Of a DNA stretch of 35,481 nucleotides, positions 850-6,072 are shown piece after piece. The position numbers were made by a program, and so were the translations under genes. The notes under the pieces were generated by a model. The model saw only the letters and a list, made by a program, of their open reading frames with translations, had not been told where the DNA came from and ran no database searches. The first letter of the stretch is position 1. Each line of letters opens with the position of its first letter. Source of the stretch: Oligoflexia bacterium (GTDB lineage: Bacteria; Bdellovibrionota; UBA1018; CAIMNF01); contig CAIMWN010000288.1 of the NCBI GenBank assembly GCA_903845155.1, forward strand, positions 1-35,481, in the 5' to 3' direction.

Positions 850-873
850 TTCGACTTGTGGGGGGTAGGCATC

Positions 874-3800
874 ATGCGTATTAAACGCCTAGAGATTCAA
901 GGATTTAAATCATTCAAAGACAAAACAGTCATCTATTTCGATCGTCCCATTACTGGTATTGTCGGACCGAACGGTTCAGGAAAATCCAACATTGTTGATG
1001 CTTTCTTTTGGGTCATGGGCGAACAGTCCTACAAGCACATCCGCTCCAGCGGATCTGACGATATTATTTTCAAAGGCAGCAGTAAATACCAACCACTCGG
1101 GCTCGCTGAGGCCACTTTGGTCATGGAGCAAGATTGCACAGATTTAGACGCCCCTGTGGGTGCAAGCGCCAGCCCAGAAGTCAAAAAGAAGGAAATATCG
1201 GTTACTCGCCGTGTGTACCGTTCAGGCGAAGGCGAATATTTTATTAATGGAGTTCCTGCTCGTCTTAAAGACATTCAAGAATTGTTTTTAGACACCGGCG
1301 TGGGCGCAAAAGGTTATTCGGTGATTGAGCAAGGGCAGATCGACAAGGTGGTGAATTCAAAACCAGAAGATCGTCGCTTGTTAATCGAAGATGCCGCCGG
1401 AATTGCAAAATATAAACAACGCAAAAAAGAATCGCTTCGAAAACTGGAGGGTGCCAATGGCAACCTCATGCGGATTAACGATGTACTTCAAGAAATTGAT
1501 CGCTCACTTTCTAGTTTAGAAAGACAAGCGCAAAAGGCTCGTCGGTATAAGGAATATCGTGCGGAGCTTTTGGAAAAAGAAACCACTTGGGGACGCCGTA
1601 AAAATCAAGTTCTCAAGCGTCAGGTCATTCGGATTATGCAGGATCGTGAAGGTCTTGATCATTTGTTAACTGGACTTAAAGCGGAGCTTTCACAGTGTGA
1701 ATCTGATTTGGAAACTCAACGAATTGTTCAATTAACGGATTCTAAAATTCAGGAACAACTTCAAAGCGAAGTCGAGCGCTCTGTCGCTGATTTAAGTCAT
1801 CATCAAAGTGCACTTGAATTATCACGCAAGCGCCAAGAAGACTTAAATCGTCAATTGGTTCAACTTGATAGTGAGAAAAATCAAATTGAAGGTGACCTTG
1901 CTTATCATCGCGAATCCATTGGTGTAAAAAACGAAGACTTCGTTACTCTCGATGAAAAAGTTGCAGTCATTACTGAGCGCGCAGAGGCTTTGGAGGCCAG
2001 TGTGCGTGATCTACGTGAAGCTCATCATGTTAATAAACGCGAAGCCGAAAGTAAGCGCCGCGAGTTTGTGGCGCTCACGCAAACGTCTTCTCAAAGCTAC
2101 TCAAAAATTGCTGCAATGAAAGAGCGCGTACAAGGTGCGGAATCGCAACTTGCGAAAATTGAAGCACAAGCTCAAGAACTCAGTGAGGTGCTTGCTACAA
2201 CTAAAGAAGAAAAAATAACTTTAAATCAGCGACTTGAAGATAAAACTTCCACTCGCTCTCACACGCGCGACTTAGTGAATGCAAAAAAAGAACTCGTGTC
2301 TTCGATTGAAGTAGAATCAAAATCTGCTCGTCATTCTTATGATCAAGCACTCAAAAATCTCACTTCACTCAGCTCTCGCATGAAGAGTCTTGAAGATCTT
2401 GAAAAAGCACGTGAAGGCATGGCTAACGGACCGAAAAAAGTCTTGGAATGGGCAAAAGAAGAAGGCAAGACCTTCGCCGTCCTTTCAGATTTCATCGAAG
2501 TAGAAGGTGGTTATGATCAAGCCGTGGAAACGGTCCTTGGTCATGCATTTGATCGCCTTTATGTGCAAGATGCGGACACTGCATTTGAAGCGCTTCGTTT
2601 TCTTCGTGACTGCCAAGAGGGAAGTGCCGCCATTCAAATTGCGATTCCAAATCTAGAGCAAAAAGAACGCGCACAATATAATCCACTTCGTAAATTTGTT
2701 CATTTGATTAACCCAACCGGTTACAGCGCTGAAAGTTCAAAAACAGTTCATCAGTTGATTGAGTGTCTGGTGTCTTCGGTTGAAGTGCTAGAAGAAGTGC
2801 CAAATTTAGGCGATATCAAAACCTATCAAGCCGAAAAAATAAGTTTCGTAACGAAGAACGGCATTTGGTTTGATGCAAACCAAGGTGTGTTGTTTGGTGG
2901 AAGCGCTGAAAGTGATCAGGCGAGCAGCATTCTTGCTCGTAAGCGTGTCATTCAAGAACTTCGTGGCGAAGTTGCGAATGCTGAAATCGTGCATGCGAAT
3001 TTAGATGAAAAAGTAAGCATCCTTGCTCAGTCCTTAGAGACTGAACAGTCCGAGCTAAAACTATTGCAAGTGACCTTGGGTGATCTTGAAATTGAAGTGG
3101 GTACACTTGAGCGCGAGTGTGCGCAAAAGGAACGTACGATTCAAGAGATGGCGCGATCATTTGAACGCCAGCAAGATGAAAAGACACAGTATCAAGAGCA
3201 AATTGAACAGTCTTTTAATGAGATTTCCTCTATTGAAACTTCTTTGGTTGAAATTGCCAGTACCCGCGAAACTTTAGAGGCTTGGGTAAAAGATCACGAA
3301 GCTCAACTTGCAGAAAAAGATGCTGAACTCAGAACTGACGAAGAGGAACTTCAGGTGGCTCGAATTCAAGAAGCGTCTGAAAAGGAGCGAAAAAACTCGC
3401 TTAAAAAGGAACTTGAAACGGAACAACGCTATCTGCAAGATCGCGAACGCCGCTTAAGTGAAGTGGAACGTTTACTTGAAACCTTTAATGAAGATCGCAG
3501 TCAGTACTCAGGGAATGACTCCGAGCACGAAGACGCAGTGATGAACTTTACTCGTTCACTTTCTGAGAAGCGTGAAGCGCTTTCTTTGGTTCGTGATCGT
3601 TTGGAGCAAGCAAATACTCAGGTGAACTCTAGAATGGAGCGCATTCGCGAACTTCATAAATTGGGAGATGATAAAACGAAATCAGTCACTCAATTCGCGA
3701 TCGACCTTGAGCGACTCATGGGCGAGCTCAATCATTTAACTCAAAACATGGAAGAGAAGTATGGTGTGGGTTGCTTGGAAGAGTCTGAAGGTCAAAATAT

Positions 3801-4506
3801 TCAAGAAGAGATGAATGATCCAGTTATTACGCTTGAAGTATCGGCCGAAGAGGAAAAGGCCCTTCATGTTGAAGTGGAAGACCTTCGTGATCGCATTCGC
3901 CGTTTGGGCGAAGTAAATACCATGGCAGTTGAAGAGTACGAAGAAATGCAAAAGCGTCATGAGTATCTCTTCAAAGAGAAGGCTGATCTCGAGCATTCTA
4001 TTCAAAACCTGAATGATGCTATTGAGCATATTAATAAGACATCAGAAGAGCGGTTCCAAAAAGCGTTTGAGGCTATTGCGACTCGCTTTGAAAAACTCTT
4101 CCCCATTATTTTTGGTGGTGGACAGGCTCAACTCACGCTCGTGTATCCAGAAGGCTCACAAGATATTTTGGAAGCCGGTGTGGATATTTTAGCGCAACCT
4201 CCGGGCAAGAAGATTTCAAATATGACTCTTCTTTCAGGTGGGGAAAAAGCTTTAACCGCGATATCACTTATTTTCGCAATCTTTATGGTGAAGCCTTCTC
4301 CATTCTGTATTCTGGACGAGGTCGATGCGCCTCTCGATGATACTAATATCGGTAAATTCAATGCCCTGGTTCGCGAGATGTCGGCGAAATCGCAATTCAT
4401 TCTCGTTACCCACAATAAGAAGACGATGGAATTGAATGATACGCTTTATGGTGTGACGATGGAAGAACCAGGAGTATCGCGCATGGTTTCCATCCAACTC
4501 CAGTAA
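874..4506 (+). CDS. smc: chromosome segregation protein SMC
   Basis: SMC is the ATPase core of the bacterial condensin that compacts and segregates chromosomes, normally with ScpA/ScpB. From the chosen start it is 1210 aa, as expected. The N-terminal head carries Walker A (GPNGSGKSN, residues 31-39). Long Glu/Lys/Gln-rich coiled coils flank a hinge at about 515-680. The C-terminal head has the ABC signature (LLSGGEKAL, about 1121-1130) and Walker B (CILDEVDAPLDD, about 1143-1154). A TTG at 856 is in frame, but the ATG at 874 is preferred: it has the GGGGGTAGG ribosome site at 860-868 and begins directly with the typical SMC N-terminus (MRIKRLEIQGFKSF). It is monocistronic here; scpA/scpB are not in the window. 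Confidence 0.97.
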   Translation: MRIKRLEIQGFKSFKDKTVIYFDRPITGIVGPNGSGKSNIVDAFFWVMGEQSYKHIRSSGSDDIIFKGSSKYQPLGLAEATLVMEQDCTDLDAPVGASASPEVKKKEISVTRRVYRSGEGEYFINGVPARLKDIQELFLDTGVGAKGYSVIEQGQIDKVVNSKPEDRRLLIEDAAGIAKYKQRKKESLRKLEGANGNLMRINDVLQEIDRSLSSLERQAQKARRYKEYRAELLEKETTWGRRKNQVLKRQVIRIMQDREGLDHLLTGLKAELSQCESDLETQRIVQLTDSKIQEQLQSEVERSVADLSHHQSALELSRKRQEDLNRQLVQLDSEKNQIEGDLAYHRESIGVKNEDFVTLDEKVAVITERAEALEASVRDLREAHHVNKREAESKRREFVALTQTSSQSYSKIAAMKERVQGAESQLAKIEAQAQELSEVLATTKEEKITLNQRLEDKTSTRSHTRDLVNAKKELVSSIEVESKSARHSYDQALKNLTSLSSRMKSLEDLEKAREGMANGPKKVLEWAKEEGKTFAVLSDFIEVEGGYDQAVETVLGHAFDRLYVQDADTAFEALRFLRDCQEGSAAIQIAIPNLEQKERAQYNPLRKFVHLINPTGYSAESSKTVHQLIECLVSSVEVLEEVPNLGDIKTYQAEKISFVTKNGIWFDANQGVLFGGSAESDQASSILARKRVIQELRGEVANAEIVHANLDEKVSILAQSLETEQSELKLLQVTLGDLEIEVGTLERECAQKERTIQEMARSFERQQDEKTQYQEQIEQSFNEISSIETSLVEIASTRETLEAWVKDHEAQLAEKDAELRTDEEELQVARIQEASEKERKNSLKKELETEQRYLQDRERRLSEVERLLETFNEDRSQYSGNDSEHEDAVMNFTRSLSEKREALSLVRDRLEQANTQVNSRMERIRELHKLGDDKTKSVTQFAIDLERLMGELNHLTQNMEEKYGVGCLEESEGQNIQEEMNDPVITLEVSAEEEKALHVEVEDLRDRIRRLGEVNTMAVEEYEEMQKRHEYLFKEKADLEHSIQNLNDAIEHINKTSEERFQKAFEAIATRFEKLFPIIFGGGQAQLTLVYPEGSQDILEAGVDILAQPPGKKISNMTLLSGGEKALTAISLIFAIFMVKPSPFCILDEVDAPLDDTNIGKFNALVREMSAKSQFILVTHNKKTMELNDTLYGVTMEEPGVSRMVSIQLQ

Positions 4507-4511
4507 TTTAT

Positions 4512-4640
4512 GTAATTCTCGTGAAAACGTAGACCGGGCTGCGTTGGGACTACGGACTCTTTCGGTGCGACGTGCTCTTCGTGCGTCTCCCTCCATCGCC
4601 TTGCCCAACTTCGCGCGATCTACGTTTTGACGAAAATTAC
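4512..4640. repeat. 129-bp element with 22-bp imperfect terminal inverted repeats
   Basis: The ends (4512-4533 and 4619-4640) are inverted repeats matching at 20 of 22 positions. Further inside, GTTGGG (4543-4548) pairs with CCCAAC (4604-4609), and GACG/CGTC plus a direct repeat of CGTGC lie in the centre. It starts 5 nt after the smc stop and ends just before the lolA promoter. It is GC-rich inside and has no run of T after the stem, so it is not an ordinary terminator. Candidates are a miniature inverted-repeat transposon, a REP/BIME-like dispersed repeat, or a large RNA hairpin in the smc 3' region. I saw no second copy in this window and no clear target-site duplication. Confidence 0.6.
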
Positions 4641-4645
4641 TGCCC

Positions 4646-4674
4646 TTGTGAGCCAGGCTCTAAAGCTCTATACT
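4646..4674 (+). promoter_or_regulatory. sigma-70-type promoter for lolA
   Basis: TTGTGA (4646-4651), a 17-bp spacer and TATACT (4669-4674). It lies 35 bp before the lolA ATG and immediately after the inverted-repeat element, so lolA need not depend on smc transcription. Confidence 0.55.
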
Positions 4675-4708
4675 GGTAAGGAACTGAAAGTAATTTAAGG
4701 AAAAAAGC

Positions 4709-5344
4709 ATGAAAATTTTGTTCGTTTCTGCCGTCATCTTATTGTTTGCAAATGTTGCTCAAGCAAAGCTGCCAGCTTTACTTGAAAAAGTTCAAGCGGA
4801 GTATATGAAATCTGCTGGAATTGAGGCCAAATTCGAACAAATTACGGATGTAAAGGCGACGAAGCAAAAAAAGAAGGCCCAAGGACGGATTTGGATTAAG
4901 CGCCCGAATAAACTTCGCTGGGAAACGATCAATCCTGATCCGAATATTTTAATTAGTGATGGAAAGACTTTTTGGTTTTATACGCCGCCCTTTGAAAAGG
5001 GTGAGCGCGGACAAGTCATGATTAAAAAGACGGCCCAGGTTCAAACTCAGTTTTTGAATGCACTTCTCAGTGGATCATTTGATTTTGGTAAAATGAATAT
5101 TGCAATAGCGCCGAAGGCCGCCAATGTTTTTATCTTAAGGCCTAAAGAAGGAACGGCCGGAGATGTTCAGACTGCAGAAGTAACTATTAATCAAGCGAAC
5201 AACCAAATTGAGCGTGTTTACATTGTTCATTCCTCTGGAAATGAAACTGAAATTAAACTTCAAGAAATCAAGCTCACCTCGTCACTTGACGAAAAATTAT
5301 TTAAATACACCCCTGATCGCAACACTGACAAAATTGTGGAGTAG
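4709..5344 (+). CDS. lolA: outer-membrane lipoprotein carrier protein LolA
   Basis: LolA is the periplasmic chaperone that takes lipoproteins from LolCDE and delivers them to the outer membrane. The 211-aa product has a clean signal peptide (about residues 1-19, cleavage after AQA). The mature part shows typical LolA features: an early segment similar to IEAKFEQ, the GRIWIKRPNKLRWE strand region, the DGKTFWFYTP motif, and a C-terminal basic/hydrophobic beta pattern. The ribosome site TAAGGAA sits before the ATG. It follows smc with its own promoter, and the next gene also encodes an exported protein. Confidence 0.93.
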   Translation: MKILFVSAVILLFANVAQAKLPALLEKVQAEYMKSAGIEAKFEQITDVKATKQKKKAQGRIWIKRPNKLRWETINPDPNILISDGKTFWFYTPPFEKGERGQVMIKKTAQVQTQFLNALLSGSFDFGKMNIAIAPKAANVFILRPKEGTAGDVQTAEVTINQANNQIERVYIVHSSGNETEIKLQEIKLTSSLDEKLFKYTPDRNTDKIVE

Positions 5345-5382: not shown

Positions 5383-6072
5383 ATGAAGCTAAAAATGATA
5401 TTGATGAGTGTGCTTTTTACTGCGACCGCTTATTCTGCTGAAAAACCAACTTTGGACCCAGCATGTATTGCTTGGGAAAAAGGAAGAACCGAGCTTCAAG
5501 TAAGCATGAGCGCTACCAACGACCAACTCATTGAGAATCTTTCAAAGTATCCGGATCAAAAATCTCATAGCTTCACCTTTATGAAGCCTGAAACCGACCG
5601 TCAAATGCTTACTCGGTTGACGGATATTTCTGAGTGTAAACTATTTTCCTATTTTGATGATTTTAAAACCTTGCTGGCCAAAGAAAATCTATCTCAATCG
5701 CAAAAGAATAAAATCATGAATCTACTTTGGGATCGGATCATCATCAATCATAGTGATGATCGCGACACTCTTTTTAGCATGCGACTTTTTTCTGTTCTAG
5801 TAGAGAAGGTTGTGGATCAAAAGTGGCTTAAGTTGAATGATGCCGGTTATTTTGAATTGTCTCGTGTATTATCCGAAACCGATGGCGCATTTTATTCGTC
5901 TCAGACTTTTTCAAGGGAAGTAAATGGGAAAGGACCTGAAAAATTTAATGGCGTTGAAAAAATGAGTGATGACGAGGTTTACAGTATGTTGCAAAGAATG
6001 CGTAAAGAAAGACAGGGGGCGGACCGAGCGATGCATTCGCTGGTTCGTTGGGTTCAGCGTGTTCGCTTGTAG
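5383..6072 (+). CDS. secreted protein of unknown function
   Basis: I do not recognise this 229-aa protein. The ATG at 5383 is preferred to the in-frame TTG at 5365, because it begins a standard signal peptide (about 19 residues, cleavage after YSA). The mature protein is charged and probably mostly helical. It has Cys residues at the start (DPACIAW) and at SECKLF that could form a disulfide, and no lipobox or membrane span. The C-terminus is Arg-rich. It follows lolA by 38 bp and precedes a GNAT gene by 29 bp, with no visible Shine-Dalgarno. A periplasmic location is likely. Confidence 0.75.
   Translation: MKLKMILMSVLFTATAYSAEKPTLDPACIAWEKGRTELQVSMSATNDQLIENLSKYPDQKSHSFTFMKPETDRQMLTRLTDISECKLFSYFDDFKTLLAKENLSQSQKNKIMNLLWDRIIINHSDDRDTLFSMRLFSVLVEKVVDQKWLKLNDAGYFELSRVLSETDGAFYSSQTFSREVNGKGPEKFNGVEKMSDDEVYSMLQRMRKERQGADRAMHSLVRWVQRVRL

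Follow-up and report, generated by a model that had tools for sequence, protein, structure and literature searches.

A long imperfect hairpin behind smc in an Oligoflexia bacterium, probably a diverged copy of an insertion unit that targets the 3′ ends of genes

With roughly two chances in three, the long imperfect hairpin that follows smc in the window (the whole 35,481-nucleotide stretch of DNA analysed here) represents a non-autonomous insertion unit of a kind that targets the 3′ ends of genes, here as a diverged and probably decayed copy. It is part of a structurally defined family. Members of this family are placed directly after gene 3′ ends, mostly those of tRNA genes and otherwise often stop codons, and in one orientation. 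As a family of small insertion units it is apparently undescribed in this phylum; a literature search turned up nothing alike apart from a lead in Geobacter and a broad survey covering families of stem-loop repeats.

Results

The hairpin and its surroundings

An earlier note, made from the sequence, had described an inverted repeat with 22-bp arms and further interior pairing between smc and lolA, and had judged that it did not look like a terminator. These observations hold. The outer 22 nt of the arms match at 20 positions, and the arms in full (4512–4548 and 4604–4640; 37 nt, 81% complementary) form the longest inverted repeat of the window. In RNA folding the plus strand reached −53.4 kcal/mol (z −5.97) and the minus strand −56.4 kcal/mol (z −6.12), and none of 200 shuffles folded as well on either strand. 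Pairing extends even beyond these arms, as CAGTAATTT, which spans the smc stop codon (4501–4509), pairs with AAATTACTG (4634–4642). The GC stem with T tract of an intrinsic terminator is not what is seen here, since neither a T tract nor a terminator-like site occurs in 4400–4800, and the hairpin matched no Rfam family at gathering score. Features of the region are listed in Table 1.

Table 1. Features of the smc–lolA region in window coordinates, with copies of a second hairpin repeat of the same genome (locus:positions)
Feature	Position	Strand	Remark
smc	856..4506	+	SMC_N, hinge; intact, proposed insertion just past its stop codon
Left copy of 9-bp direct repeat AGTAATTTA	4502..4510	+	Spans smc stop codon; proposed target duplication
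Long imperfect hairpin	4512..4640	-	Minus is the purine-rich strand, which bears the ladder in the family; recovered by model R2 at 4516-4632 (-)
Ladder core	4543..4609	-	Short helices and purine loops GA/GCA, GA/GA, GA/GA, AA/GUA on the family consensus (R2 alignment)
Tip hairpin GACGCAC-GAAGA-GCACGTC	4569..4587	-	Counterpart of family tip; two pairs broken
Inverted copy of 4501-4509, AAATTACTG	4634..4642	+	Adjoins hairpin; parallels antisense target copy of some tRNA units
Short second part of insert, 46 bp	4643..4688	+	In place of the ~130-150-bp structured second part of full units
Promoter-like site TTGTGA-17-TATACT	4646..4674	+	9/12 matches, based on consensus alone; expectation from shuffles 0.4
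Right copy of 9-bp direct repeat AGTAATTTA	4689..4697	+	Directly 5′ of AAGGA and lolA ATG
lolA	4709..5344	+	Frame overlaps or abuts smc end in the ten genus relatives where found
CTTGTATGAAAGTGATATCA-type hairpin copies	L047:9298-9344; L061:3025-3071; L070:19535-19609; L071:3503-3590		Own genome

A single copy by sequence

The genome that contains the window comprises 4.29 Mb in 337 contigs, and in so fragmented an assembly repeats at contig breaks could escape searches. BLASTN found no second copy of the hairpin in it. A search with the arm pattern returned the two arms themselves and one match with three mismatches, while the pattern read backwards as a control gave three matches; no source IS or transposon appeared in this search of the genome. 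In 40 relatives BLASTN gave no copy of appreciable length, only two short stretches of 22–27 bp, and plasmids and phages gave no match. Several sequence-matched intergenic copies, which the earlier note had named as support for a dispersed repeat, do not exist in these data, where only the window copy is found. The same note would have dropped a dispersed repeat if the copy were single and without conservation in related genomes; this rule would wrongly dismiss the hairpin, because the evidence for its family is structural and not by sequence.

Long hairpins as such are commoner than in resampled sequence: 478 kb of this genome contained 13, where resampling gave 1, and 384 kb from relatives contained 7, where it gave none. 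Some of the hairpins of this genome form repeats of another kind. A second hairpin repeat, with arms like CTTGTATGAAAGTGATATCA, is conserved in sequence and has at least four copies in the 478 kb sampled, and a further one, with arms GTCGTCCCGATCTTTATGTTGA and perfect stems of about 40 bp, occurs at L047:14614-14689 and L065:5865-5934. The genome is also larger than the other 11 of the genus that were compared (2.1–3.4 Mb).

A family recovered by structure

A covariance model built from the window element alone (R1) found single matches in five other genus genomes, every match beside a tRNA gene, and none in the other members of the order that were searched. A second model (R2) was built from these five matches and one further copy from the window's own genome (L049), with the window element excluded. 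R2 recovers the window copy at full length (60.1 bits, model positions 1–122 of 122, E 2.4e-10 genome-wide), a recovery that is partly circular since R1 was derived from that copy. The L049 row was not an R1 match, and R2 then finds some 37 further copies in the genus. It detects about 43 copies in 10 of the 12 genus genomes, seven of them in the genome of the window. Among the 38 pairs of the alignment behind R2, 27 show changes in both partners, where shuffles give 13.5, and sliding the partners against each other makes this signal collapse; these counts lean towards structure because five of the six rows came from a structure-bearing search.

Across the phylum, with the best nine candidates scored per genome, R2 matched in at least 31 of 369 genomes and at least 18 of 182 genera. 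Matches outside the genus have the ladder described below and the tip GGCGTAC-loop-GTACGTC in common. The tip pattern also matched two viral contigs, both without tRNA genes. Some weaker R2 matches (L123, L128, L138, L139, L141 and L142) share ends like GACTGTTGAAAAAG and make up a subgroup that does not lie at tRNA genes.

That the window palindrome arose by chance or slippage, outside any family, would agree with its single copy by sequence. This is very improbable, and a chance hairpin is rejected by the shuffles, none of 200 of which folds as well, together with its recovery by a model built without it.

Anatomy of the ladder

The family hairpin has a variable outer stem and a core that is a ladder, in which short helices are split by tandem G-A mismatches. 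Among 166 internal loops of 2 × 2 nt on the purine strand, 117 have GA opposite GA; on the opposite strand such loops are mostly TC opposite TC. By RNA energies, 63 of 64 copies fold more stably on the purine strand, and this ladder strand is the strand opposite the upstream gene. The window copy is diverged, with a short second part and a core that is partly decayed and broken in the R2 alignment: its tandem G-A loops are present once it is aligned to the consensus and absent from its own minimum-energy fold.

Two long hairpins of the same genome that R2 does not list, at L044 and L054, carry one GA/GA loop each, so that the family may be wider than R2 detects. The hairpin at L044:6936-7123 is very long (188 nt, about −116 kcal/mol) and also has a GGACAGGATGTCC loop, its loops resembling those that tRNA units have in their second part; it is perhaps another branch of the family.

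Placement behind gene 3′ ends and layout of the unit

In the genus, 26 of the 43 copies start at −3 to +7 nt relative to a tRNA gene's 3′ end, all in the same orientation. Five more stand in tandem behind a tRNA-adjacent unit or behind tmRNA with orientation unchanged, and outside the genus 7 of the 21 loci listed show the tRNA 3′-end placement, again in that orientation. Ten copies without a tRNA, the window copy included, start −2 to +11 nt from a same-strand stop codon by mechanical reading frames. Neither the placement at 3′ ends, mainly of tRNA genes, nor the single orientation, nor the reach of the insert to about position 4697 was part of the earlier note.

Many units are about 280 bp long and end in a 19–34-bp copy of the 3′ end of their own tRNA. 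At a cut-off of four mismatches (mostly none were observed), such a second copy lies downstream of 19 of the 33 tRNA-adjacent copies, mostly 270–300 bp on, and of none of 33 shuffled controls; it is absent at this cut-off in the other 14. When loci without a near distal piece were extended up to 20 kb, mostly no distal tRNA copy appeared; L188 has extra matches at 284 and 3358. An antisense copy of the T-arm region accompanies 12 of the 33 (six mismatches at most). The second part of the unit has a branched fold, which in several copies is closed by tRNA-derived stretches.

Hairpin and second part may be exchanged independently, because two units at tRNA-Met genes (L116 in G011 and L133 in G008) have nearly identical second parts and different hairpins. 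Behind a tmRNA gene (L132, G002) units stand in tandem with copies of the tmRNA 3′ end. On contig C266 of the window's genome two units (L136:1467-1676 and 5848-6067) lie 4.4 kb apart in opposite orientation and have a 120-bp repeat in common (93%); here one hairpin seems to be inserted within the second part of another unit.

Tyrosine integrases use tRNA and tmRNA genes as sites, and the elements that they integrate leave an intact tRNA, a distal copy of its 3′ part and a fixed orientation. The present units resemble these elements: the tRNA is intact, its 3′ part, starting at the T-loop, is repeated downstream in 19 of 33 cases, many isotypes and also tmRNA are used, and orientation is fixed. 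They could therefore be attachment-site remnants, or tiny cis-mobilised elements, of such an integrase. However, they span only about 160–300 bp, too short to encode an integrase, and no integrase was identified beside the copies, which were read without protein-family profiles. Moreover, a single family is used at many tRNAs, with a matching copy particular to each, and copies also lie at stop codons of protein genes. The window copy, for its part, lies behind smc and not at a tRNA gene. We regard this origin as rather improbable.

Empty sites and the smc–lolA junction

Empty sites in relatives, which the earlier note had proposed as support for a mobile or dispersed repeat, are found at two places. 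At tRNA-Leu(TAG), two genomes (G011 and G003) run straight from the gene into downstream sequence, as read by eye in the printed flanks, and a third (G002) has the same downstream sequence only after a hairpin and a partial copy of the tRNA 3′ end. The smc–lolA junction is empty in all ten genus relatives with lolA (G001–G010), while lolA was not found in the eleventh genus genome, G011. From the smc stop codon to the conserved VQ motif of LolA the distance is 70–112 nt in these ten and 280 nt in the window. Because the two genes overlap or abut in the ten relatives, the stretch of about 200 bp between them is private to the window genome among the genomes read. The genes are also close together in a more distant relative (L007). 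Relatives begin lolA within the end of smc, and in the window the LolA start and signal-peptide region (4709–4780) is new.

The hairpin arm begins 5 nt past the smc stop codon, in the orientation of the family, and the insert extends past the hairpin as far as a 9-bp direct repeat. If the flanks are joined at this repeat, the smc stop, AAGGA and a lolA ATG some 15 bp downstream would result. As a target copy the 9-bp repeat is only suggestive, because the chance of such a repeat is 0.7–1.8%. It is likewise suggestive that direct and inverted repeats together at the window copy reproduce the arrangement of the tRNA units at a smaller scale. As judged from its match to consensus, the promoter-like site in the second part may serve lolA. 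We also considered the end of smc as a mimic of a tRNA T-arm, and this was unsupported, since the best of several offsets tried ranked only within the top 1.7% of window positions.

A strong fold between two co-directional genes might suggest a cis-acting RNA element that regulates smc and lolA. Such a role is very improbable, as all ten genus relatives that have lolA lack the element at this locus, and the same structure is found at unrelated genes.

A resident 3′-end signal would be an inherited, locally replaced long hairpin whose role is to end or to protect transcripts behind tRNAs and some messages. Placement right behind gene ends, the fixed orientation and the frequent convergent neighbours agree with this explanation. 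Nevertheless, we consider it unlikely: the T tract is missing, sites are empty at tRNA-Leu(TAG) and smc–lolA, tRNA 3′ ends are copied and units stand in tandem, and the structured strand lies opposite the upstream gene. Selection for a 3′-end function alongside mobility is possible.

Discussion

Relation to known repeats and elements

The earlier note had suggested a miniature inverted-repeat element (MITE) or a REP/BIME-like dispersed repeat. The part that stands is a family of dispersed hairpins of insertion type, defined by structure, for which relatives show empty sites. In common with REP, BIME and REPIN elements, its members are extragenic, non-autonomous and dispersed hairpins; in contrast to these, they are far longer, unconserved in sequence and built on a G-A ladder, with no set of short palindromes. 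REP-type repeats are marked by an associated RAYT transposase gene and by many short palindromes alike in sequence; here BLASTN and the arm pattern give one copy. With MITEs the family shares short length, absence of coding sequence, inverted repeats and insertion with empty sites (at smc–lolA in ten relatives and at tRNA-Leu), and the target duplication at the window copy is only suggestive. Unlike MITEs, terminal sequence is unconserved and the target is a gene 3′ end; terminal repeats common to the copies and an IS are not seen, the outer arms differing between copies and the arm pattern being unique in the genome. Neither descent from an IS nor assignment to REP or BIME is shown by these results.

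Integron attC sites, which bear RYYYAAC and GTTRRRY boxes at the hairpin ends, are long imperfect hairpins of which one strand is structured and in which structure is conserved over sequence. By description, the present family is like them in the last three respects.

The nearest lead in the literature, also by description, is a family in Geobacter metallireducens of multicopy intergenic elements with the central palindrome GRCGTAGCGCTGCTACGCC, matched by nucleotide BLAST and predicted to be RNA elements (PMC2700814, Additional file 4). Like the present family, these are intergenic and dispersed, and in a comparison by description only their palindrome is close in form to the tip GGCGTAC-loop-GTACGTC (PMC2700814). 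Unlike it, they are not linked to tRNA 3′ ends in the part of that source consulted (PMC2700814).

A proposed course of insertion

Mobility of the family is suggested by empty sites and copied targets, movement itself being unobserved. According to our proposal, an insertion unit, which we call the GA-ladder hairpin unit, would have entered at the smc stop codon, duplicating AGTAATTTA and leaving smc intact. The insertion would have separated lolA from smc, so that lolA would have come to use a start, and perhaps a promoter, of its own. The unit would be moved in trans by an enzyme that recognises the ladder-folded strand; we propose this strand because only one of the two is suited to tandem G-A mismatches. 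The moving strand may be single-stranded DNA or RNA, and the enzyme a recombinase or a transposase; we keep both alternatives. Neither a moving enzyme nor an autonomous version was found in loci extended up to 20 kb or in an open-reading-frame listing of the 4.4 kb between the two C266 copies.

More tentatively, such units could form a new class of bacterial mobile unit, in which a tandem G-A ladder on one strand is recognised, insertion goes to gene 3′ ends largely regardless of their sequence, and the new unit receives a copy of the target 3′ end and, in some cases, one of its complement too. This is possible but somewhat doubtful.

Implications

At smc and lolA, the window would present a case of an insertion that separates an otherwise overlapping gene pair. 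The family is nearly invisible to sequence search because mainly the fold is conserved, and ordinary repeat surveys would miss such units. Unusually, it combines a one-strand G-A ladder with a constant orientation behind the ends of genes and with copying of tRNA 3′ ends. If mobility holds true, how the enzyme locates the 3′ ends of unrelated genes would become a testable question.
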